Of a stretch of 64,000 nucleotides of DNA, positions 48,402-63,905 are shown piece by piece. The notes under the pieces were generated by a model. It did not search any database and was not told the DNA's origin. It saw only the letters and a program-made list of their open reading frames with translations. The stretch's first letter is position 1. Every line of letters starts with the position of its first letter. The DNA lies in assembly GCF_003129605.1 (NCBI RefSeq), contig NZ_QBDX01000001.1, positions 124,001 through 188,000 of the forward strand, read 5' to 3'. The position numbers and the translations under genes are program-made. This DNA comes from Hyphobacterium indicum. Its GTDB lineage: Bacteria; Pseudomonadota; Alphaproteobacteria; Caulobacterales; Maricaulaceae.

Positions 48402-48422
48402 GTTTGTCCCCGGGATGGCCCC

Positions 48423-48947
48423 TTATTCCTCATACTGGATTTCGTAAGTGTTGATATACGTCTCGCCATTCGACGATTCGCTGACCCGCATGGCGAGCGA
48501 CGCGCCCGGCGTTTCCATGATGTGATAGACGGATTGCAGGAACTCGCTGGCAAACCATCTCCGGACCTGCGCGCGCGCTTCGACATCGTCATAACCAGCG
48601 ATGCGCAGGGTATAATTGGAATTGCCGTGGCGATCGCTATCATAACAGCGCAGGCGGATCATGACCTCCAGCATCGAGACGGAGCGGATATCCGGGCAGC
48701 TCACGAAATAATTGCTGGCGAGGCCGCGTTCCCGGCCCGGCCGATCGCTGTCCTCCGCCTCGTCCGCCTGTGTCGCCAGATCCAGCACACGGCGCGAGAT
48801 TGTCGGCGTATCGTCATTCTGCTCCAGCCGCTGTGCCGGTGCGGTCTGGATCTGCTGCGATTCAACCCGCCTTTCCTGGGCCAGCGAGGGGCTGGCCAGC
48901 AGGCATGCCGTGGCGGCAGTCCAGATTAGACAGGCAGAGGCTCTCAC
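48423..48947 (-). CDS. Secreted protein of unknown function inside the pnt operon (gene 3 of 3)
   Basis: 174 aa from a GTG at 48947, chosen because AGGAG lies about 7 bases upstream and the GTGA overlaps the stop of the preceding gene. Signal peptide with probable cleavage after SLAQ. The mature region is rich in Arg/Asp/Glu and contains CPDIRSVSMLEVMIRLRCYD, a pair of cysteines that could form a disulfide. No family recognised. Placed between pntAB and pntB. Confidence 0.7.
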   Translation of the reverse strand: MRASACLIWTAATACLLASPSLAQERRVESQQIQTAPAQRLEQNDDTPTISRRVLDLATQADEAEDSDRPGRERGLASNYFVSCPDIRSVSMLEVMIRLRCYDSDRHGNSNYTLRIAGYDDVEARAQVRRWFASEFLQSVYHIMETPGASLAMRVSESSNGETYINTYEIQYEE

Positions 48948-49228
48948 AACAAATCTCCTGCTCGTGGCTTGGTTATAGACATTTCGGACATCCATGATTC
49001 GTCCCGCTCGGCCCGCCAGCGCCGGTTTTCATAGTCCAGCTCGATTTCCATCACATCGTGTAGGTTCGGAGTTTCAAAACTGCCGCAGTCGCACGTGATT
49101 TGAAGGGCTACCTCCGTCAGCATGGCCTGATCGACGATGCAGCGTGTCACGACGCCCTCGCCCATATCAGGTGCCTGCGCCACGGCGGCACCTGTCATTA
49201 GGAAAAAGAGAGCGAGCAAAACGCGCAT
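48944..49228 (-). CDS. Small secreted cysteine-containing protein inside the pnt operon (gene 2 of 3)
   Basis: 94 aa from the ATG at 49228, one base after the previous gene's stop. Signal peptide MRVLLALFFLMTGAAVAQ. The mature part has three clustered cysteines in TRCIVDQAMLTEVALQI and the following TCDCG, suggesting a disulfide or metal site. Unknown family. It overlaps the next gene by 4 bp (GTGA). Confidence 0.68.
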   Translation of the reverse strand: MRVLLALFFLMTGAAVAQAPDMGEGVVTRCIVDQAMLTEVALQITCDCGSFETPNLHDVMEIELDYENRRWRAERDESWMSEMSITKPRAGDLL

Positions 49229-49229
49229 C

Positions 49230-49640
49230 CTAGTCCACGATCGCCAGGATGCGATAGCAGGTGATGGCCGAACGGGCGCTGGCGCCACGAAGCCTCGAGG
49301 CGTCGCAGATTTCCTGCGTCGCACTGTCGGCGGCCTCGTAATTGACCGTGATCGTATTGCGGGCTGAACCGCTCTGGCGGGATTCCAGCAGCCAGCTCAT
49401 GAAAGCGGAAATACCGCCGGGGCGCGTCCCCCCGTCGGTGGCCATCAGAGCGCGGCCGTCCGATCCCATATCGCAGACGAAACCGGCCCCGCCACGGGCA
49501 AAGACAAGCTCCGCCACCCGGCACTGGGCAGCCCCCGGTCCAGGTCGCGCGTCCTGACTGGTCAGGCGCGCGCGCTGCTGGGCATCGGCCAGCCCGGAGA
49601 AAGCGAAGGCAAGCAGGATGATGAAGAAGAGACGCATCAT
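49230..49640 (-). CDS. Small secreted protein inside the pnt operon (gene 1 of 3)
   Basis: 136 aa with signal peptide [21 protein letters not shown]. Four cysteines in the mature part (CRVAEL, CDMG, CDASRL, CYRIL) could make two disulfides. Its ATG overlaps the pntAB stop (ATGA) behind a GGAGG site, so it is translated with the transhydrogenase. Family unknown. Confidence 0.72.
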
Positions 49641-49981
49641 GATTTGCCTCCATCGCCTGCCGCCGGCTTTTCCTTTTTCTTGTACATGGCCAGCATGCGC
49701 TGGGTGACGAGGAAGCCGCCGAAGATATTCACACTGGCGAGGATCACCGCGATCGCACCGGACACATTGGCAAAGCTGGAGGCGCCGGAGGTCTCGCCGG
49801 TCAGCGCCGGGGCCGCTGCCGCCAGCAATGCGCCGACAATGATCACCGAGGAAATGGCATTGGTCACCGCCATCAGCGGGGTGTGCAGCGCCGGGGTCAC
49901 CGACCAGACCACATAATAGCCGACGAATATCGCCATCACGAAAATGGCGAGGCGGAGGGTAATCGGATCAACAGCGTCCAT
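49637..49981 (-). CDS. pntAB: NAD(P) transhydrogenase subunit alpha part 2 (membrane piece)
   Basis: 114 aa with three to four membrane helices ([33 protein letters not shown]), the membrane segment that in E. coli is fused to PntA. Split pntAA/pntAB is usual in alphaproteobacteria. It starts 14 bp after pntAA. Confidence 0.94.
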
Positions 49982-51594: not shown

Positions 51595-52533
51595 TCAGCG
51601 CTGGCCCCAGCCCGACTGCATCAGCGTTTCCAGAGCCGCCGCGACGGCCAGCGGTTGATCCAGAATCAGATGGTGCTGGGCGTCGGGAATCGAGATCATC
51701 GGCGTCTCCGGTCCGAACGTCTCCGCCATGAAGGCCCAGATCTCGTCGGTGACCAGAGACGTGTCCGCACCACGGAAAAAGGCCAGCGGACACCGGGCCT
51801 TGTCCCGTAACACTTCCGGATCACGGCGTTGATACTCCAGCTTGGCCCAGAGATTGGGATCGAATTTCCAGCTCCACCCGCCCTCCACCTGTTTCAGCGA
51901 ATTGCGGGCAATATGGTCCACGACATGGACGGTCTCGCAGGTCTGCGGTGGCAGCAGGCGGAAGCGCGCGACCGCGGTTTCCAGCTTCTCATAGGTCTTG
52001 CCGCCCCGCTGCGGAGGGGACGAGGAGCGCTGTTCCTCGGCCGGGCGCACGGGCGAATCAAGAATGATGGCCCCGGCCAGAGCCTCACCGAAAGCCATGG
52101 CCGACATCATGGTTACGAAGCCGCCAAAGGAATGGCCGGCGACAAAGGGCTTTCCGGCCTCGAAAAGACCGGCATCCTCCGCAACCGCTCGGACCTCGTC
52201 GGCATAAAGCGGCATGCGATAGACCTCGCGATGGCCGCTATCTCCCATGCCGGACAGGTCGATGGCGGCCACACGCCGCCCCGCGCTGATGAAGGGCGCA
52301 ATGGCATCCCACCATTGCTTGTGCGCGACCCCGCCGTGAACGAGAATGACGCCCGGCTGACCGCGCTGCCCCCAGGCTTTCCAGACAATGTCCACGCCTT
52401 CCACGGCGACCCGGCCGCTCTCGGTGGGGGCCGCCAGGGCTTTTGCAAACCAGGCAGGGTGAGGCGGCGCTTTTCCCTCGAAGTTTTCAAGCGGCGGGCG
52501 GATATCGCGGAGGGCATTGGAGGCAGTACTCAT
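51595..52533 (-). CDS. Alpha/beta hydrolase
   Basis: 312 aa. Oxyanion region LVHGGVAHKQWW, nucleophile GHSFGG and catalytic His in DAQHHLILDQP. It belongs to the Abhydrolase_6 group. No signal peptide. Substrate unknown. It lies 88 bp upstream of the oxidase subunit IV gene and may be separately transcribed. Confidence 0.87.
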   Translation of the reverse strand: MSTASNALRDIRPPLENFEGKAPPHPAWFAKALAAPTESGRVAVEGVDIVWKAWGQRGQPGVILVHGGVAHKQWWDAIAPFISAGRRVAAIDLSGMGDSGHREVYRMPLYADEVRAVAEDAGLFEAGKPFVAGHSFGGFVTMMSAMAFGEALAGAIILDSPVRPAEEQRSSSPPQRGGKTYEKLETAVARFRLLPPQTCETVHVVDHIARNSLKQVEGGWSWKFDPNLWAKLEYQRRDPEVLRDKARCPLAFFRGADTSLVTDEIWAFMAETFGPETPMISIPDAQHHLILDQPLAVAAALETLMQSGWGQR

Positions 52534-53582: not shown

Positions 53583-55034
53583 ATGGCTAAGACGGTGCTG
53601 ATCGTCGATGACGATCCGACGCAACGCCGCCTGTTGCAGGCGGTTCTTGAAAAGCAGGGTTTTGAAGTCGCCTCCGCCGACAGTGGCGAAGCCGCGATGG
53701 ACATGCTGGCGCGCGGGGGTGTGGACGTCATGCTCCTCGATCTCGTCATGCCGGGCATGGACGGGATGGATGTGCTCGAAGCGGTCCAGCGCAAGGGCAT
53801 TGAAACGCCGGTCATCGTGCTGACCGCGCATGGCGGAATCGAGACCGTCGTCGCGGCCATGCGCTCCGGCGCCGCCGATTTCTTCATCAAGCCCGCCAGC
53901 CCGGAACGGATCACGGTCTCGGTGCGCAATGCGCTGAAGATGCAGACCCTCACCGGCGAGGTGAAACGGCTGAAGAAAACCGCCGGCGGCTCGCTCGGCT
54001 TTGAAGACATGATTGCCGGGGCCCCCGCCATGCGCCAGGTGGTACGGCTGGGCCAGCGCGCCGCAGCCTCCTCCATTCCGATCCTGATCACCGGGGAAAG
54101 CGGTGTCGGCAAGGAGTTGGTAGCCGGCGCGATCCGCGCCGCCTCCGAGCGCGCCGACAAGCCCTTTGTGGCGGTCAATTGCGGGGCCATTCCGGCCAAT
54201 CTGGTGGAATCCACCCTTTTCGGTCACGAGAAGGGCTCCTTCACCGGTGCCACCGGCAAGCATATGGGCAAATTCCAGGAGGCCGATGGCGGCACGCTTT
54301 TCCTCGACGAGATCGGCGAATTGCCGCTCGACATGCAGGTCAAGCTGCTGCGCGCCCTTCAGGAAGGCGAAGTGGATCCGGTCGGCTCCAACCGTCCGGT
54401 CAAGGTCGATGTCCGCATCATTTCCGCAACCAATCGCGATCTGACACAGGAAGTCGCGGCCGGCCGTTTCCGTGAGGACCTGTTCTACCGGCTCAATGTC
54501 TTCCCCATCGAAGTGCCCTCTCTGCGCTCGCGCAAGGAAGACGTGCCGGCGCTCGTCCGCCACTTCATCACCCGCTTCAATGCACAGGAGAACCGGTCGG
54601 TTGTCGATGCCGCATCGGAAACCATGGCCATGCTCACCGCTTTCGACTGGCCGGGCAATGTCCGCCAGCTGGAAAACACGGTCTTCCGCGCCGTGGTGCT
54701 GTGTGAAGGCGATTATCTCAGCCCCGGCGATTTCCCCCAGATCTCCGGCGTCATGCCCGATCTTGCAGACCTGCCGCCGCCGCCCCTGACCGGGAATACG
54801 ATGGCATTCGAGCATGGCGGTGAAACCTCCGGCCTGCCACCTGTGCCGATCATGGATGAGGGCGGGCATTTGCGGCCGCTGGAATCCATCGAGCGGGACC
54901 TGATCGAGTTTGCCATCGAGACCTATGCAGGACGCATGGCGGAAGTGGCCCGCCGTCTCGGCCTCGGCCGCTCGACACTCTATCGCAAGGTGCGGGAATA
55001 CGATCTCGACGTCGATCAGGCGCGCACGGCGTAA
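53583..55034 (+). CDS. tacA: Sigma-54-dependent response regulator, TacA-like
   Basis: 483 aa NtrC-type activator. Receiver domain: Asp10, Asp11, phosphoacceptor Asp53 ([11 protein letters not shown]) and Lys in FFIKPAS. AAA+ domain: Walker A GESGVGKE (about residue 171), the sigma-54 contact loop as GSFTGA instead of GAFTGA, and FLDEIGELP. The C-terminal Fis-type helix-turn-helix ends VDQARTA. The N-terminus and overall length resemble Caulobacter TacA, the stalk-gene activator of the ShkA-ShpA phosphorelay; a generic NtrC-like regulator is the alternative. The last 54 bp recur at 58123-58176. Confidence 0.85.
54968..55021. repeat. 54-bp direct repeat, copy 1 (3' end of the tacA-like gene)
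   Basis: Positions 54968-55021 are identical to 58123-58176. After the repeat both copies still encode Gln-Ala-Arg-Thr-Ala-stop, but with different synonymous codons (stop TAA here, TGA in the other copy), so the identity ends abruptly. Confidence 0.9.
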
Positions 55035-55056
55035 GCATAGAATTTGGTGCGACTTG

Positions 55057-55087
55057 ACCCCCGGGCTCCGTCCGGGGGTTTTCTTTT
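55057..55087 (+). terminator. Rho-independent terminator of the tacA-like gene
   Basis: Stem ACCCCCGG / CCGGGGGT with a 7-nt loop, followed by a T-rich tract (TTTTCTTTT). It lies 23 bp after the stop codon. Confidence 0.85.
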
Positions 55088-55127
55088 GAGCGCCTCCGCA
55101 ATTGGGCGGGGGCGCTTGACTATAATT

Positions 55128-56693
55128 CTAGCCCGGATTGACCAGAACACTGAGCGCATTATCGGCCAAAACAAGTTGCCGTTGCGCTTCGATCTCGCGC
55201 TCGATTCGCTGCAGCAATATCTGTCCTCCTTGCGTGTCCGCCAGACGGCCAAGAAACGGCGATTCCGAAATTTCATGCCAGTCCCGCCAACCCAGATCGA
55301 TCGCCCGCGCGAGATAACGCAGCGCCCTTTCGTCCTCACCCAGTGCGGCCATGAGTTCAGCCATCCGCAAGGCGCTTTCCGGCCAAGTGTCAAATTCGAG
55401 ACCCGGCTGATCTGTGCGTCCCGCCAGCTCTAGGGCGGCTTCCACATCGCCCTCGAGCGCACGAACGGCTGCCAGCAGGATAATTCCGCGCTCGCCCGCG
55501 GCATTGAAAGCCTGAAGCGCTGCCTCATGATCGCCAAGCTGCAAAAGGGCGCGGCCGCGGATCACGGCAAGTCTTTCTGTATTATGTTCGGCATTGTCTT
55601 GTTCGAGTATCGCCAGAGCGCCACGGGCATTCCCCTGGCGGATGGCGGCATCGGCGCGCGCGCCCAGAACAACAGATTGTCCGGGATTGGCACGCTCCGC
55701 CCGATCCATCCAATCGCTAGCAGCCGCGAAACCCATCAGGTCCAGCGCCAGAGCAATCTGTATCTCGGCATATCGGGACCGGAAGCCGCTGTTGATAGCT
55801 GCCAGCTCCTGCGACAGTCCGCTGTGAAAACGTCCAGATATAATGTCGAGATACGCTGCGCTCGACCCGGCCGCCATTTCCCGTGGATCCAGAGCATAGG
55901 ATTGTTCATAGGCTGCAATTGCTTCACCAACCCGGCCCTGGCTATCCAGCGCATAGCCCAATGCATGCCATGCAGACGCAGACTGATCATCCATTGCGAT
56001 AGCGGTTCGGGCCAGTATTTCTGCCCGTAGGGAATCGCTTTCCGCAGGTGTGAATTTTGTCGTCCTTGTTGATAGGGCGAAACTGAGACCTGTTATCGCC
56101 TCGAAAGAATCCGGCGCAATAAGCAACGCTTCCTCGAACAGCCTGACAGCCCGGCTTGTTTCTTCGGCCTGTTGGACGGCGAGCTGTTCACGAGCCCGGA
56201 TCAGCAATGGAGCCAGCTGGTCATTCACGGCAATTGCTGTCGGTTGAGCGGTTGGCGCCTCATTGCCGACTCCTCCGAATGCCATCCAGCCTGCCGATAA
56301 TAACAGGATGGCGAAAACGGCAGCGGCTCCCAGATTCCAGAGCGATAGGTGAGACCGCGAAGCTATCCAGCAATATCCCTTGCCGCGAATAGTCCGGATA
56401 AAGGCCGGGTGCGCCGGGTCATCGCCGAGTGCTTTCCGCAACAGAGCAATACGCTGGGCGATGACCTCCTCGGCCACATGATTCTGTTCCCAGACTTCGC
56501 GCGCCAACTCGTCGCGGCTGACAGAAGCAGGGGCGGCTTTGATCAGACACAACATCACCCGCAAACTGAGATCCGGCAGTTTGATCGTTTTTTCATGTCG
56601 CCGGACAACGCCCTTGTGCACGTCAATCAAAAGGTCGCCGTGTTGGAGCTGGTTGCGGAAAAAAAGGTTATCCATGAAAGACGGCTTCATCAT
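55128..56693 (-). CDS. Membrane-bound transcriptional regulator with winged helix and TPR repeats (CadC-like)
   Basis: 521 aa. Residues ~10-110 are an OmpR/CadC-type winged helix (LPDLSLRVMLCLIKAAPASVSRDEL; see RTIRGKGYCWI at its end). One membrane helix follows (about 118-140), then a large periplasmic region of TPR-like repeats. It is divergent from a serine hydrolase gene across 76 bp and probably senses an envelope signal and controls that gene. A start at 56675 is also possible. The gene lies between the two 54-bp repeats and has a lower GC than flanking core genes (about 55% in sampled lines). Confidence 0.82.
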   Translation of the reverse strand: MMKPSFMDNLFFRNQLQHGDLLIDVHKGVVRRHEKTIKLPDLSLRVMLCLIKAAPASVSRDELAREVWEQNHVAEEVIAQRIALLRKALGDDPAHPAFIRTIRGKGYCWIASRSHLSLWNLGAAAVFAILLLSAGWMAFGGVGNEAPTAQPTAIAVNDQLAPLLIRAREQLAVQQAEETSRAVRLFEEALLIAPDSFEAITGLSFALSTRTTKFTPAESDSLRAEILARTAIAMDDQSASAWHALGYALDSQGRVGEAIAAYEQSYALDPREMAAGSSAAYLDIISGRFHSGLSQELAAINSGFRSRYAEIQIALALDLMGFAAASDWMDRAERANPGQSVVLGARADAAIRQGNARGALAILEQDNAEHNTERLAVIRGRALLQLGDHEAALQAFNAAGERGIILLAAVRALEGDVEAALELAGRTDQPGLEFDTWPESALRMAELMAALGEDERALRYLARAIDLGWRDWHEISESPFLGRLADTQGGQILLQRIEREIEAQRQLVLADNALSVLVNPG

Positions 56694-56769
56694 TCTTCAG
56701 AAAAATTTAGCTGACCCGATACCGGCATGCGAGTCCACTTAATGCTCCTCAAACCATCAGGAGTTTCTC

Positions 56770-57825
56770 GTGAAACGATTTCTCGCTTTGGCCGCTGCAT
56801 TCTCGGTCAGCCCCTTGGCTCAGGCTCAGGATTTTTCAGACCAGCAAGTTTCGGATCATATCAGGGAAGGTCGCTATGGATCTGTAACCAGCCTTCTGAT
56901 CCTTCATGGTGGCAATATCACCTATGAAGGCTATTTTCGCGGAACGGATTCAGCCACACGGCATGATACGCGGTCAGTCACCAAGACCATCACTGGCATG
57001 GCAGCGGGGTTGGCCATCGCAGATGGCGCAATCGAGCTGGAGACGCCGATAGCACAGATCTTTACCGATGCGATGCCCTTCGAAGACGACGACCCGAGGA
57101 AGCACGCCATCACGGTCTTCGACCTTCTCACCATGACCGGGCCGATGGAATGCAATGACTGGGAGCATTTCAGCCGCGGCAATGAAGAACGTATGTATAT
57201 GGTCGATGACTGGATTTCCTTCTATTGGGATCTGCCGATCCGGGCGGACCGGCCTTGGGAGACGCCTGCGTCCGACCGTCCGCATGGCAGAGCGTTTTCC
57301 TATTGCACAACCGGCGTTCAGGTGCTCTCGGAAGCCATTGCCCGCGGGGTCGGGATGCCTTTGGACGACTATTTGCAGGAGCGCCTTTTCGATCCCCTGG
57401 AAATCGAACAACCCGAATGGCAAAGGCTCGCCGGACGTGATGCCTTCGCCGGAGGCGGAATGCGTCTGACCACGCGGGAGTTGGCGCGGCTGGCGGAACT
57501 CTACCGCGCTGGGGGCGTGCAGAATGGCCAACATCTTTTGCCCGAAGACTGGATCGACAGGTCACTTGCGGAATACGCTGTCATCCCCGATCGCGAAAAT
57601 ACGGGATACGGATTTCTCTGGCGGCGGCGGGAGTATGAATCCGGCGGACAGAGTTTCTTGTCCTGGGAAATGGCCGGGAATGGCGGCAACCGCGTCCTGA
57701 TAATACCCGCGCTGGATGTTGTTGCCGTTATTACCAAAACCGATTTCAATACACCCGGAATGCACGAGGCCACCGACTCTCTTATCGAGGCCGAAATCGT
57801 CGGCCATTTTGCATCAGCTCACTAG
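56770..57825 (+). CDS. Secreted serine hydrolase of the class C beta-lactamase/penicillin-binding type
   Basis: 351 aa with signal peptide ending near AQAQD. Catalytic SxxK is SVTK (Ser69-Lys72). The usual YxN is YCT (Tyr178). The third motif is in the GNGGN segment. The family includes esterases, D-aminopeptidases and beta-lactamases; antibiotic hydrolysis should not be assumed. Divergent from and probably regulated by the CadC-like gene. Located between the 54-bp repeats. Confidence 0.85.
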   Translation: MKRFLALAAAFSVSPLAQAQDFSDQQVSDHIREGRYGSVTSLLILHGGNITYEGYFRGTDSATRHDTRSVTKTITGMAAGLAIADGAIELETPIAQIFTDAMPFEDDDPRKHAITVFDLLTMTGPMECNDWEHFSRGNEERMYMVDDWISFYWDLPIRADRPWETPASDRPHGRAFSYCTTGVQVLSEAIARGVGMPLDDYLQERLFDPLEIEQPEWQRLAGRDAFAGGGMRLTTRELARLAELYRAGGVQNGQHLLPEDWIDRSLAEYAVIPDRENTGYGFLWRRREYESGGQSFLSWEMAGNGGNRVLIIPALDVVAVITKTDFNTPGMHEATDSLIEAEIVGHFASAH

Positions 57826-57831
57826 CTGGGT

Positions 57832-57895
57832 GTCCAGGCCAGCTCGAACCGCTCGAATCAGGCGGGACGGTCCTCGGAAAACGCAAATCCTTCCC
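57832..57895 (-). pseudogene. Remnant of an ASCH-domain gene (3' part)
   Basis: 64 bp with five mismatches to 60033-60096, inside the 3' part of the intact ASCH gene on the same strand. It encodes the shared EGFAFSED and FERFEL peptides, but the frame carries a stop (TGA at the position of the Cys codon) and nothing of the 5' part remains. Confidence 0.85.
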
Positions 57896-57900
57896 ATTTC

Positions 57901-58122
57901 ATTTTCCTATGCGTCGGTTCGCCAGAGCAGGAAATGATCGCCAAAGCCTGTCTCGACCGGGGTGATTGCAAGGGCATCGGCCTGTGTGTCGGCGCCTCGC
58001 TGGACTTCCTTGGCGGCGCGGCCGAACGCACGCCGGTCTGGATGCGGAAAGCGAGTCTGGAATGGCTGCACCGTCTGGCGCAGGAACCACAGCGCATGTG
58101 GAAACGCTATCTGGTGGACGGA
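57901..58122 (+). pseudogene. Remnant of a WecG/TagA/CpsF-family glycosyltransferase (C-terminal ~74 codons)
   Basis: An open frame encodes LCVGSPEQE, then GIGLCVGASLDFLGGAAERTPVW split from WMRKASLEWLHRLAQEPQRMW and KRYLVDGP. These are the last conserved blocks of WecG/TagA enzymes, which add ManNAc-type sugars to lipid-linked carriers. The N-terminal two thirds are missing and the frame runs directly into the tacA-derived sequence at 58123. It is a dead fragment of a surface-polysaccharide gene. Confidence 0.85.
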
Positions 58123-58189
58123 CCGCTCGACACTCTATCGCAAGGTGCGGGAATACGATCTCGACGTCGATCAGGCCCGGACCGCCTGA
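58123..58189 (+). pseudogene. Duplicated 3' end of the tacA-like gene (direct repeat, copy 2)
   Basis: 58123-58176 is identical to 54968-55021, and the following codons still read Ala-Arg-Thr-Ala-stop with synonymous differences. Only the last helix of the Fis-type DNA-binding domain is encoded. It is in a different frame from the WecG fragment joined to it and is followed by its own terminator. Confidence 0.92.
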
Positions 58190-58201
58190 GTCAGGAAATA
58201 C

Positions 58202-58233
58202 GGGGCCGGAAGCCATACGCTTCCGGCCCCTTT
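58202..58233 (+). terminator. Rho-independent terminator after the tacA fragment
   Basis: A perfect 12-bp stem (GGGGCCGGAAGC / GCTTCCGGCCCC), 5-nt loop and TTTATATA. It is unlike the terminator of the intact tacA-like gene, so the fragment came with its own downstream DNA. Confidence 0.85.
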
Positions 58234-58250
58234 ATATAACGCTCCAAAAA

Positions 58251-59792
58251 CTATTCACCGTCCCGGACAAAAAGGCGGCTGAAAAAGGCCAATTCATTTA
58301 CCTCCCCGTCTTCCGGCCGGAAAAAGACCACCATTCCCTCGCCGTCATAAAACTCGACCCGCATCCAGTCCTCGCGTTCTCGATCGGATCCCATTCCGGT
58401 CAGGGGGGCGGACAACTGCCCCATTGTCGCGACCAGCTCACCATTATCCATGGCGATATCGATTGTCCCGTACTCCGCATTGATATAGCGGCCGGCATAG
58501 GACTCGATGGGCAGGGAAAGCTGGATATCCCGCCGTGGCGGCAGCAATTCCTGCAGTCTCAAAGCCCGGGTCTCACGGCGTAGCTGGGCAGATGCCTCGT
58601 TCAGGCGCTCCACGCCACGGGTCCATGCTTCTTCCGGAGCGCGATACCAGTCAAAGACAAACTCGGTGATGATATCGGCAGCGACCGCACCCACGCTGTC
58701 CTCATTTGTCATTACGGCGACGCCGACCTCACGTTCGGGCATAAATGCAAACAGCGCGGCATATCCGGTAAAGCCGCCGCCATGATAGATAACCGGGTCG
58801 GGACCCGCATGCCCGAGAAACCATCCCAGACCATAATGCTCGCGTGTCAAAAACGAGGGATGGTCCCCATTGATGCCGGCATGAGGCCGATGTGTGGTCT
58901 CGACAATTTCGGTGTCTATAACCTGACTGCCATCAAGACGACCGTCATTCATCTGGAAGATGAGCCAGCGCGCTGCATCATTGGCTGTCATGATGTGACC
59001 ACCGGCAGACTGCATCGTGACGTCGGACTTCAGAAGTTCGGCTGGCGTGGACCCGGAGGCCGAGCCGCCGGCGACATAGGCCGTTGCCAACTGTCCGGAG
59101 CGGCGAGCATCGTCTAAGCGGGTTGCGGTTTGTGACAAGCCCAGCGGAGCGTGCACATAGGTTTCGACAATGTCCTGCCAGCTCAACCCGAGCTCATGCT
59201 GGGCAATGGTCGTGACAATATTGTATCCGGAGTTGGTGTAATTGAACTCGCCGGGTCCGGCGTCCTCCTGAGGCCGCAAATAACGCAACATCTCCCAGGC
59301 AATTTCGGGGGTCCACTCCCCAGAGCGGGTTTGCCGGAAAGACAAGCCATCAGAATGGATGCCGCCGGTATGATAAAGCATCTGGCGCAAGGTGACCTCG
59401 CCGGCCGGCAAGTCCTCGCGAAAGTCCACGTCCGGCGCGGCCTCGGCCAGGGTGCGATCCAGTTCGAAAACGCCCTCCCGGTCAAGAATTTCAAGGGCAA
59501 GGGCTACAAATGACTTTGTGACAGACCCGATGTAGAAAGAGGTCTCTGCGGAGACGGGCCGGTTATGCTCGATATCGGCCAGGCCGAAGCCGCCCGCAAA
59601 TTCAGTCTCATCGCCGCGTACGACCGCGACCGAGATACCCGGAACGCGGTCGAGCCGGTCCAGCGTGTACTCGGTGAAAGCTGCGAGGTCGGTTGCGAAA
59701 TCCTGTCCGCGATCGGCCATATCGGGTGGAGCAGAGCAGCCTGTGATCCAAAAGCAAATTATCGGCAACAACGCAATTCTGAATTTACGCAT
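58251..59792 (-). CDS. Serine hydrolase lipoprotein (beta-lactamase family)
   Basis: 513 aa from the ATG at 59792, preceded by AGGA. Lipoprotein signal ending ITGC. Catalytic SxxK is SVTK (Ser90-Lys93), YxN is YTN (in FNYTNSGYN), and the C-terminal ~130 residues form the extra domain often found in this family. Likely an esterase or peptidase at the envelope. It is the second serine hydrolase of the tacA-ASCH interval and is not closely similar in sequence to the first. Confidence 0.86.
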   Translation of the reverse strand: MRKFRIALLPIICFWITGCSAPPDMADRGQDFATDLAAFTEYTLDRLDRVPGISVAVVRGDETEFAGGFGLADIEHNRPVSAETSFYIGSVTKSFVALALEILDREGVFELDRTLAEAAPDVDFREDLPAGEVTLRQMLYHTGGIHSDGLSFRQTRSGEWTPEIAWEMLRYLRPQEDAGPGEFNYTNSGYNIVTTIAQHELGLSWQDIVETYVHAPLGLSQTATRLDDARRSGQLATAYVAGGSASGSTPAELLKSDVTMQSAGGHIMTANDAARWLIFQMNDGRLDGSQVIDTEIVETTHRPHAGINGDHPSFLTREHYGLGWFLGHAGPDPVIYHGGGFTGYAALFAFMPEREVGVAVMTNEDSVGAVAADIITEFVFDWYRAPEEAWTRGVERLNEASAQLRRETRALRLQELLPPRRDIQLSLPIESYAGRYINAEYGTIDIAMDNGELVATMGQLSAPLTGMGSDREREDWMRVEFYDGEGMVVFFRPEDGEVNELAFFSRLFVRDGE

Positions 59793-59953
59793 AGGCAGGT
59801 CCTCATTCGAGATTGACGGTCGCAATGACAAGTCTGATCCCTCTGGGCACTGCAGTCTTGAAAGATTTTAACCTTCATTGTGTCGATCATATCTGGACGT
59901 TGCAGCAATGGATCATCGCAGGCGGGGCCCTTCGCTGCGTGCCTTGACAACCT

Positions 59954-60484
59954 CTAATCCTGGCGCGCCATCGGGTGGCGTCGAGGGAGGCAATTTCCCT
60001 TCGGCTTCACTAGGCGAAAATCATCACCCCCCGTCCAGACCAGCTCGAACCGCTCGAAACAGGCGGGAAGGTCCTCGGAAAACGCGAAACCTTCCCGCTC
60101 GGCTTCCCGCATCCAGTAGGCCAGATGCTCGCGCCACCAGTATTCGAAGGACCGGTCGCCTTCGCCTTCATCCCACGCAAATTGCGCATCGGCCTCGCGC
60201 ACCGGCTTGATCTCGACAGATGTCGTCCGGATCACGCAGGCGGGTTTTCCGCGTCCATCAAGTATGATCGACAGATCGCCGGACTCGGGAAATCGTGCGC
60301 CTGGCTGCTCATACCAGCGGGCCAGCGCACAGGTCGCCCGCTTCTGTCCGATCAGGACGAGGCCGAGCAATTCATCCGCCAGAGCCTCGCTGTCGCCGAA
60401 CTGATCGACATCAAACGGTTCGCCGGAATGTCCGGTTTCTGCGCAGAAACGGTCCCAGAAGGCGCGTTGATCAGGCGTCATCAT
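59954..60484 (-). CDS. ASCH-domain protein
   Basis: 176 aa. The conserved pattern of an ASCH (ASC-1 homology, PUA-like) domain is seen in LGLVLIGQKRATCALARWYE, GRGKPACVIRTTSVEI and the DRSFEYWWREH region. ASCH proteins bind RNA or modified nucleotides; some hydrolyse N4-acetylcytidine. Its start overlaps the end of the upstream basic-protein gene by 14 bp, so it belongs to the gapR operon. A 64-bp piece of its 3' part is duplicated at 57832-57895. Confidence 0.85.
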   Translation of the reverse strand: MMTPDQRAFWDRFCAETGHSGEPFDVDQFGDSEALADELLGLVLIGQKRATCALARWYEQPGARFPESGDLSIILDGRGKPACVIRTTSVEIKPVREADAQFAWDEGEGDRSFEYWWREHLAYWMREAEREGFAFSEDLPACFERFELVWTGGDDFRLVKPKGNCLPRRHPMARQD

Positions 60485-60920
60485 CTCCACCCTTGATCAC
60501 CCGCAGCTTCGGCGGGCCGGTCGGGCGGGACGGTGAAAGCGGTTCCGCCGCCTCACCGCTTTCCAGATCCTCATTGATGTCCCGCACCCGCGGACCAGGC
60601 GATTTCGCTTTCGGCTTGAAGCCGGATTGCCGGAAACCCTTGCCGCGTGACATCGGCTTGCGGCCCTTGCCGTCCGCCTTCTTCTCGATTTCGCGCAACT
60701 TGGCTGTCTGCAGGCCGGAGAGGGCCTCATCCAGCTTGCCCTTGTCGGGATCATTGAAGGCCGAACCATAGGTTTCCAGCCGGTCACCGACCGAGGTGAT
60801 GAATTCGTCTTCCCATTCGGACAGCGTGTCCTCGCCCTGCTTTTCGGCGATCTTGCGGCGTGTGCGTTCGAGGCGGCGCAGCGCCTTGCGGGTCTTTTTG
60901 GGGTCGACCTCGCGCGGCAA
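60471..60920 (-). CDS. Basic protein of unknown function downstream of gapR
   Basis: 149 aa from a TTG at 60920, 7 bp after the gapR stop, with GAGG about 12 bases upstream. A longer frame to 61061 would overlap gapR by 134 bp and looks like out-of-frame gapR. The sequence is charged: an N-terminal helical region (KKTRKALRRLERTRRKIAEK) and a Lys/Arg/Pro-rich, probably disordered tail ending KLRVIKGGDDD. No family recognised. Cotranscription with gapR suggests a nucleic-acid-related role. Confidence 0.68.
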   Translation of the reverse strand: MPREVDPKKTRKALRRLERTRRKIAEKQGEDTLSEWEDEFITSVGDRLETYGSAFNDPDKGKLDEALSGLQTAKLREIEKKADGKGRKPMSRGKGFRQSGFKPKAKSPGPRVRDINEDLESGEAAEPLSPSRPTGPPKLRVIKGGDDDA

Positions 60921-60927
60921 GCCGGGC

Positions 60928-61206
60928 TCAGTCCTCGACCGCGCCCAGATAGAGCTCGAGCAGGGCTTCGGTTTCCTGCCGCTCATTGCGGTCGATCTTG
61001 CGCAGGGCGATGACGCGGCGGAGGATTTTGGTGTCATAGCCCATGGATTTCGCCTCGGCATAGACTTCCTTCATGTCGTCCATCACCTGCTTCTTGTCTT
61101 CCTCCAGACGTTCGATCCGGGCGACGAAGGCCTTCAATTGCTCGCGCGCGGCCTGGCCGATCGTGTGGGTGTTGTCGGAAACGGCAGATGGGGATGCATC
61201 ATCCAT
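60928..61206 (-). CDS. gapR: GapR family nucleoid-associated protein (DUF2312)
   Basis: 92 aa. The DUF2312 core is seen as [35 protein letters not shown] and [19 protein letters not shown]. In Caulobacter, GapR is a tetramer that clamps overtwisted DNA ahead of polymerases and is essential for normal growth. Two genes follow closely (basic protein, ASCH protein) and are likely cotranscribed. Confidence 0.92.
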
Positions 61207-61294: not shown

Positions 61295-62206
61295 TCAGTT
61301 ATCCCCGGCCCGGTGCAGGCGGCGCACGGCATTGGCGACCACATCCGGTGCCGTATGATGCAGCATATGCCCCCAGTCCGCGCGGACAATCAGCTCGGCA
61401 TCCGGCAGGCTGGCCGCGACCGGAACCGAATGGCGGTTTGTGAACACCACCTGATCGGCTTCCCCGGCCAGAAAAACCACCGGGAGGCTCACGCCGGAGT
61501 AAAGCGCTTCCTGCCGCGCGAGATGGTCATTCACCTGTGCCATGTCCTCGGCATTGGCCTTGAAGATGTCCGCGCGGAAGAGGCGATTGACTTGCACGGT
61601 CTCCGCATAACCGTCCGGCACCGGTTGCGGATGGAAGGTGTCTTCGAGACCCGCATCGATCCGCCGCGGCCCCACCAGTGGAATGATCAGGCGGGTGATA
61701 ACCGGACCGATACCGAAAAGCCGCGAGGCGCGATTATACCAGGCCGCATCGCCGACACCGGAATGCAGAGGGGCGCCGATCAGCACGATGCCCGACAAGA
61801 CCTCGCCATGATCAATCGCCATGCGCATGGTGATCGCCCCGCCCCAGGAATGGCCGACGACGACCGGGCGCTCCATGTCCAGGCGCGTCGCCAGTTCGGC
61901 GAGCAGCGCAGCTTCCCGCTCCGGCGTTCAGCGCCCGTCCGGCCGCTCGCTCCAGCCAAGCCCGGGACGGTCGACATAAACAGCACGGAATCCGTCCAGA
62001 TGGTCGCCAAGCGCCAGCCGCATGTCCTCGGCATTGGACGACGCGCCATGCAGGATCAGCACGGCCGGGCCGGTGCCCTCCTCGACATAGCGGATGCGGG
62101 CATTGTCGATCTCGATGAAGTGTCCGGCAGGAGGCATATCGTCAGCCAGGGCTTGAGGAGTAAACAGCAGGCACAGGGCCAGAAAAAGGGGCCCGCGAAA
62201 GATCAA
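61295..62206 (-). pseudogene. Alpha/beta hydrolase split by one in-frame stop codon
   Basis: Read from a TTG at 62206, the N-terminal part has a signal peptide (LALCLLFTPQALA) and the start of an alpha/beta hydrolase fold (VLILHGASSNAEDM, VDRPGLGWSERPDGR). A TGA at 61930-61928 interrupts; the same frame continues TPEREAALLAEL and, from Met at 61876, VVVGHSWGGAITMRM and the rest of the domain with the final His in DWGHMLHHT. No frameshift is needed: one codon change restores a ~303-aa enzyme. The first codons overlap the TPR gene stop by 4 bp. Sequencing error is an alternative. Confidence 0.82.
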
Positions 62207-63170: not shown

Positions 63171-63905
63171 ATGCGTATGATCACAGCTCTTCTGATCGGA
63201 CTGGCCGCTTCTGTCGAGGCAGCGGCTCAGGACATGATCGAGGTCGATCTCGAGCTCGTGCTCGCGGTCGATATTTCCTATTCCGTGGATGAAGACGAGG
63301 CCCGGCGCCAGCGCGAGGGCTATGTCGCCGCACTGGCCCATCCGGATGTCATTTCCGCAATCGAGGGCGGTCCGCTGGGCCGGATTGCCGTGACCTATGT
63401 CGAATGGGCCGATTCGCGTTTCCAGCGCGCCGCTGCCGACTGGACCGTTATCGCTTCGGAAGACGATGCACTGAATTTCGCTGCCATTGTGGCGGCAGCC
63501 CCGCTGGAGCGCGGTCATTATACCGCCATCGGCGCCGCGATCGCGGATTCGGTGCGCCGCATCGAAACCAATCAGTATCAGGGCTATCGCCGTCTGATCG
63601 ATATTTCCGGAGACGGGCCACAGAACCAGGGCATGGACCTCGATGAAGCCCGCGCCATGGCGGACGAGGCCCGCATCATCGTCAATGGCTTGCCGGTTAT
63701 CTCTGACCAGCCGGGCCGCTGGGTGCGCCCGGTCGAGGTCAATCTGGACGCCTATTTCCGGGAGAATGTCGTCACCGGCCCGGGGGCCTTTGTCCTGCCC
63801 GCCCGCACCGCCGACGAATTCCGCACCGCCATTCTGCGCAAGATGACGCTGGAAATCGCCGGCGCCGCGCCCATGCCCTCCGAACTGGTTGGTGCCGCAC
63901 CGTGA
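63171..63905 (+). CDS. Secreted DUF1194 protein with von Willebrand A-like fold
   Basis: 244 aa with a signal peptide (cleavage near AAAQD). A MIDAS-type DxSxS motif is seen as DISYS (Asp34, Ser36, Ser38), plus the DUF1194 segment HYTAIGAAIADSVRRIE and DISGDGPQNQG. It probably binds a divalent metal and a partner protein in the periplasm. Function unknown. The next gene overlaps by 4 bp (GTGA). Confidence 0.88.
   Translation: MRMITALLIGLAASVEAAAQDMIEVDLELVLAVDISYSVDEDEARRQREGYVAALAHPDVISAIEGGPLGRIAVTYVEWADSRFQRAAADWTVIASEDDALNFAAIVAAAPLERGHYTAIGAAIADSVRRIETNQYQGYRRLIDISGDGPQNQGMDLDEARAMADEARIIVNGLPVISDQPGRWVRPVEVNLDAYFRENVVTGPGAFVLPARTADEFRTAILRKMTLEIAGAAPMPSELVGAAP

Follow-up and report, generated by a model that had tools for sequence, protein, structure and literature searches.

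How did two different serine hydrolase genes come to stand in a row behind a single conserved regulator gene, with scraps of neighbouring genes between them? The question is raised by a locus of Hyphobacterium indicum (GCF_003129605.1, 2.79 Mb; G000 below) lying at G000:C1:124001-188000, a stretch of 64,000 nucleotides that we call the window and to whose positions all coordinates without a prefix refer. Between tacA, coding for a sigma-54 response regulator, and the next conserved gene, orf60471, we found, in order, a CadC-like regulator, serine hydrolase 1 (SH1), a scrap of an ASCH gene (ASCH'), a scrap of wecG (wecG'), a scrap of tacA (tacA'), serine hydrolase 2 (SH2) and an ASCH gene. The arrangement resembles two alternative gene cassettes placed one after the other behind tacA and joined by a scar of neighbour-gene scraps, with relatives carrying the cassettes singly or not at all. 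The features of the interval and its anchors are as follows.

53583-55034 (+), tacA-type sigma-54 response regulator (Response_reg, Sigma54_activat and HTH_8), the conserved anchor to the left of the variable interval
55036-55099 (+), native tacA 3' flank with a terminator-like hairpin, common to the near relative G005 (59 of 59 bases equal over 55041-55099)
55128-56693 (-), CadC/ToxR-like regulator of 521 aa (Trans_reg_C, E 9e-15; TPR) with an N-terminal winged helix and, by eye, a hydrophobic stretch
56770-57825 (+), SH1, beta-lactamase fold (PF00144, E 1.6e-27; SVTK at residue 69), with a signal peptide by eye
57822-57895 (-), ASCH', the ASCH 3' end with the native stop (WTPS*), degraded by an internal stop and meeting the SH1 stop at a common CTAG
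57886-58125 (+), wecG', an internal 240 bp of wecG (PF03808, E 1e-22), a copy of the genome's own wecG at G000:C1:196331-196570, outside the window
58123-58190 (+), tacA', the last tacA codons, with 54 nucleotides identical to the genome's own tacA and then 5 silent mismatches in 14 nucleotides
58202-58237 (+), terminator-like hairpin behind tacA', read from the sequence and unlike the native tacA terminator
58251-59792 (-), SH2, beta-lactamase fold (PF00144, E 1e-50; DUF3471; SVTK/YTN/HGG), with a lipobox-like N-terminus (ITGC) by eye
59954-60490 (-), ASCH gene (PF04266, E 3e-17), homologous over 60033-60490, with a non-native tail down to 59954
60471-60938 (-), conserved protein without a Pfam match (orf60471), right anchor, overlapping the ASCH start as in G004
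60928-61206 (-), GapR-like DNA-binding protein (PF10073, E 7e-31), right anchor, gene order conserved

The initial annotation had already given the order tacA-SH1-ASCH'-WecG'-tacA'-SH2-ASCH, which the Pfam domains and the repeats bear out; its account of the first half left the regulator at 55128-56693 (-) unnamed. Two direct repeats delimit the halves. The tacA 3' end recurs over 68 nucleotides at 93% identity (54968-55035 and 58123-58190), and the ASCH 3' end over 64 nucleotides at 92% (57832-57895 and 60033-60096) with 5 mismatches, so that the halves proposed earlier, each running from a tacA to an ASCH 3' end, rest on real repeats with the 5/64 mismatches first counted. The scraps match genes of the same 18-kb stretch over 63, 64 and 240 nucleotides at 92-95% identity (E values of 5e-22, 5e-20 and 5e-103, respectively), which is far beyond chance, and each of the three has an intact relative no more than 18 kb from tacA in the same genome.

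We found that the main ASCH copy, previously taken to be intact, has lost its native C-terminus, which is kept in the scrap beside SH1. ASCH' ends in ...ELAWTPS-stop and the ASCH of G004, a genome of the same genus, in ...ELVWRPS-stop, whereas the main copy has ...ELVWTGGDDFRLV and runs on as WTGGDDFRLV..., with 25 codons following WT. Since ASCH' ends like G004 and the main copy does not, the loss lies with the main copy; the 64-base repeat therefore flanks an insert inside ASCH. Of the five differences between the repeat copies, four could be polarised with G004 by our own reading of the alignments; all four fell on the scrap side, one of them being a stop. A fused ASCH was also seen in another genome of the genus (G001; L047:5722-6834, -), in which a single frame of 370 aa covers ASCH and a methyltransferase domain behind it; besides the window, this is a second case of an ASCH gene that lacks its native end and has been joined there to incoming sequence.

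The WecG piece had been taken for a 3' end but is internal to wecG, as its source segment, 94% identical over 240 bp, lies inside a gene that runs on to G000:C1:196657. This gene stands about 12 kb beyond ASCH, and wecG' has the same orientation. A seam had been placed at 57896-58122; the WecG piece does lie there, but 57886-57895 belongs to both the wecG match and the ASCH repeat. The identity of wecG' was 94.2% to the genome's own wecG, 92.9% to that of G005 and 85% to those of G006 and G007, and one ATT codon is common to wecG' and the own wecG, where G005, G006 and G007 have ACC. With G005 as the reference, six non-silent and four silent changes fell on the branch of the scrap, and none and four, respectively, on that of the own gene. 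The simplest reading of these sequences is that wecG' was copied in this lineage after its split from G005 and then drifted.

In tacA', the five mismatches all fall within the last 14 of the 68 nucleotides (p 0.0002), and three of them are also found in G006. Because all five are silent, tacA' must stem from another working tacA allele. The stretch behind tacA' had no match, and the spacer between SH2 and ASCH no homology, among the loci compared.

At two of the joints, the parents as they stand today share more bases than expected by chance: eight at the ASCH/wecG joint (CCTTCCCG; frequency among random joints in the region, 0.00026) and five, GGCCG, at the wecG/tacA joint (0.0074). A third joint lies at about 60032/60033, where the non-native ASCH tail begins.

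To place these observations, homologues were counted in 137 genomes of the family (E<=1e-140 for tacA, 1e-10 for ASCH, 1e-60 for SH1 and 1e-70 for SH2). The tacA gene was present in 123 of the 137, and ASCH in 30; in 27 of these 30, ASCH stands beside tacA as a convergent pair, and in the other three (G076, G078 and G095) the two genes are on different contigs. The near relative G005, whose tacA protein is 99.6% identical, has an empty site: it matches the window up to 55099, the last base before the interval that it lacks, and from 60481 onward, and has 25 bp between the two matches. Among the other six genomes of the genus, G002, G006 and G007 have no ASCH, and G001, G003 and G004 carry ASCH but neither hydrolase in the gap. 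The ASCH start overlaps the next gene in G004 just as it does in the window, and this edge is thus old. No sharp step marking a recombination tract was seen in the flanks against G005, identity running from about 85 to 99.6% in 250-base bins. The G+C content is 51-61% in 500-base bins over 55000-60000; on either side, starting at 52000 and extending to 63000, it is 60-67%.

The architecture of each half occurs singly in relatives, but the trees do not place the window's copies as sisters of those found there. The arrangement tacA-CadC-SH1-ASCH was found in G011, G028 and G115, and tacA-CadC-SH1 without ASCH in G021. For SH2, the single version is that of the metagenome-assembled genome OFTM276 (G023), in which an SH2-type gene stands directly behind tacA in convergent orientation, with 18 bases between the stop codons and 70 between the blast matches (in the window, 61 bases separate tacA' from SH2). 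The contig of OFTM276 is 4.5 kb long and its start cuts tacA; an AraC-type regulator follows SH2, and no ASCH match was found on this contig. Thus the linkage of tacA and ASCH recurs elsewhere, and the content between them in relatives is not only unrelated to that of the window. The initial annotation had called the two versions strain-specific, but no conspecific strain was among the genomes compared, and the tacA-linked hydrolases of relatives are 46-53% (SH1) and 38% (SH2) identical to those of the window.

SH1 occurred in 11 genomes of the family, and beside tacA in five of them (G000, G011, G021, G028 and G115). A CadC-like gene stands divergently beside the SH1-type hydrolase in 12 of 12 loci, whether tacA is near or not (window 55128-57825; L143-L148, L154, L141, L051, L053 and L057); this count covered the 11 SH1 genomes and G043, and three weaker SH1 relatives (G029, G047 and G055) stand outside it. 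The regulator-hydrolase pair thus seems to travel as a unit. SH2 was found in only two of the 137 genomes, G000 itself and OFTM276, whose copy, 38% identical, is its best relative in the family (302 against 178 bits). A search of 398 genomes of the order at E<=1e-95, with up to three candidates scored per genome, returned only two others, at 38 and 39% identity. The position of SH2 behind tacA is occupied by the same kind of gene in OFTM276, whether or not by common descent there.

Is the gap behind tacA a hotspot, as had been supposed? We surveyed 65 chosen loci, a subset of the 137 genomes weighted to near genera. Both anchors, tacA and orf60471, occurred together in 47 of them; the 18 without a match include L196, which holds only 27 bases behind tacA. 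The distance between the anchors ranged from 42 to 5443 bases, the window having the longest, and exceeded 1 kb in 30 of the 47. Among seven neighbouring intervals measured, tacA-orf60471 was most often longer than 1 kb, aside from tacA-GapR, which contains it; the values were 1/46 for orf60471-GapR, 3/35 for GapR-abhyd, 0/35 for abhyd-TPR, 0/11 for AlaDH-hyd, 20/46 for hyd-tacA and 4/10 for TPR-VWA, which had a larger maximum (9150). In a Pfam scan of 20 of the 60 open reading frames (ORFs) listed from such gaps, we found two PPK2 kinases, two prolyl oligopeptidases, an HxlR regulator, a GH10 hydrolase and an RlmL-type methyltransferase; nine had no Pfam match and three had sub-cut-off matches only. 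By this comparison the gap is a hotspot locally, although the other side of tacA (hyd-tacA) varies too.

Three further observations concern the surroundings. The alpha/beta hydrolase gene at 61295-62206 (-) is split into two frames in the window and is one open 303-aa frame each in G005, G006 and G007; the split is due to a sequencing error or to a frameshift of recent date. About 1.25 kb at 48406-49657, holding small ORFs, correspond to some 10 bases at the matching place in G005, so that another variable stretch lies nearby. Two DUF1194 (VWA-like) genes, about 55% identical, stand in tandem (window 63171-63905 and L024:4-699), as they do in several relatives.

What series of events could have produced the scar? 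The initial annotation proposed a recombinant with two versions of the locus joined in tandem. The linkage of tacA with ASCH and the single versions in relatives speak for such a joining, but a plain crossover is insufficient, since the wecG piece comes from the own genome and is joined by short microhomologies. We consider it reasonably probable that an incoming tacA-SH2 version was stacked by template switching or microhomology joining beside the resident CadC-SH1-ASCH, at a spot where genes are exchanged although no mobile element is visible. The stretch from tacA to the next conserved gene would be this spot, and tacA-CadC-SH1-ASCH the resident arrangement in this lineage. DNA of a related strain, with a tacA 3' end followed by SH2, would have been joined into the ASCH 3' end, the trigger perhaps being a collapsed fork or a broken end. 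Copying may have switched from ASCH to the own wecG at the 8-base microhomology, covered 240 bases, switched again at the 5-base microhomology to the tacA 3' end and continued into SH2; re-entry into ASCH behind the point of departure would then have duplicated the ASCH 3' end and left the main ASCH without its native last codons. The outcome would be two versions of the locus in tandem, with the wecG and ASCH scraps later decaying as non-coding DNA. Switching in the order ASCH, wecG, tacA 3' end, SH2 and ASCH would account for the order and shared orientation of the pieces, for the microhomologies and for the second copy of the ASCH end. We infer in addition that there was a single event, that template switching rather than end joining was at work and that the source of SH2 was foreign. 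Ku-dependent end joining was rejected as a candidate, the genome having no PF02735 match (among 14 control genomes, only B. subtilis had one).

Several points weigh against this account. The scraps show an excess of non-silent changes that is weak by test (p 0.07 when wecG is taken alone and 0.04 with ASCH), and two of the ten wecG' changes (columns 78 and 171) are present in G006 or G007 too. A second parent of the third joint did not turn up, the donor version has no close carrier among the genomes compared, and the events may have differed in order and number. In addition, the best tree places the window's CadC-SH1 apart from the tacA-linked copies, a single clade not being rejected (p-AU 0.10); the OFTM276 SH2 groups with hydrolases of another family rather than with that of the window, without starred support (93/90 and 92/88); and the window's SH2 sits on a long branch, no sister of it having support.

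Part of the same evidence would suit a different history, in which the resident tacA-CadC-SH1-ASCH was first duplicated in tandem via wecG template switching, and homologous recombination at the ends formed by tacA' and ASCH later put SH2 in the place of the second CadC-SH1. The origin of wecG' and ASCH' in the resident lineage agrees with it, and a crossover within tacA' would fit the 54 nucleotides of own tacA followed by a tail from another allele. However, this history needs two events, and no significant remnant of SH1 or CadC was found beside SH2: the best alignment of the SH2-ASCH spacer with the SH1 3' end gave p 0.21 in shuffles, or p 0.03 in a narrower test chosen after the alignment had been seen, and the lowest value in the other comparisons was p 0.04, for CadC on the opposite strand. 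We regard it as unlikely. Still less probable are stepwise, unrelated insertions of short genomic or foreign patches into a decaying spacer, with no tandem joining; every scrap is indeed short and microhomology is present at two joints, but tacA' leads directly into a hydrolase placed as in OFTM276 and ASCH' stands where ASCH ends in the single versions, and separate insertions would not restore both.

An integrase-type insertion at the tacA 3' end, with the direct repeats as attachment sites, is very improbable: a direct repeat of a gene 3' end does flank the insert, but the Pfam scan of the main interval proteins, with small ORFs outside it, revealed no integrase or transposase, the second repeat (ASCH) and the wecG piece would stay unexplained, and the repeat tails differ by silent codon changes. 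Equally remote is a false join in the assembly between reads from two strains: although the seam was judged from the assembled contig without raw reads, the scraps are 5-8% off their parents, wecG' and ASCH' carry decay changes, and the contig is 872 kb long in a genome of 4 contigs rated 100% complete and 0.02% contaminated.

Both hydrolase genes are open frames, and both products have the PF00144 match and the SxxK motif (SVTK). By sequence, the nearest solved chain to SH1 is 8rlj, a class C beta-lactamase-related serine hydrolase, and that to SH2 a Pbp-related beta-lactamase. SH2 scored far under the cut-offs of the NCBIfam beta-lactamase models, and antibiotic resistance is therefore not to be inferred for it. 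The two proteins are likely to be secreted or lipid-anchored beta-lactamase-fold hydrolases, one of them under a membrane CadC-like regulator.

If these inferences hold, what does the locus mean? It may be a readable fossil of accessory genes added beside, and not in place of, the resident version; confirmation in strains would tie, for a natural marine population, hotspots free of mobile elements to template switching driven by microhomology. A wider view, which we put forward with considerable doubt, is that secreted beta-lactamase-fold hydrolases, alone or together with a CadC-like regulator, are exchanged preferentially at the tacA 3' end throughout the family and without mobile elements, and that template switching during replication can stack versions there where it might have replaced them, leading to stepwise growth of a gene family in one chromosomal spot.

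Comparison with known systems begins with the two regulators. The name tacA is that used in Caulobacter, the domains themselves being those of a sigma-54 response regulator. The other regulator, a match to Trans_reg_C and TPR, we take to be a membrane one-component regulator of the CadC/ToxR type: like these, it has an N-terminal winged helix, a hydrophobic stretch and then a C-terminal domain; unlike these, its C-terminal domain is TPR and it stands divergent from a beta-lactamase-fold hydrolase, and it scored far under the NCBIfam cut-off for CadC proper. A literature search for short-patch double illegitimate recombination as a possible parallel found none in the collection searched. Gene-transfer hotspots between core genes without mobile elements are described by Oliveira et al. 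(2017, PMC5635113); as there, variable content lies between fixed conserved genes, relatives hold empty or differently filled versions, and no integrase was seen, here among the proteins tested, but at this locus the two fillings follow each other, with a scar, and neither has replaced the other. For template switching, PMC3161906 discusses the insertion of nearby sequence and microhomology of a few bases as features of human rearrangements, and notes comparable complexity, again with microhomology, for E. coli; both features likewise mark the joints of the scar, whereas the joining here also brings an apparently foreign gene and is a fossil event. The locus is thus a well-preserved example of the known swapping and stacking of genes without a visible mobile element, and not a new kind of system.

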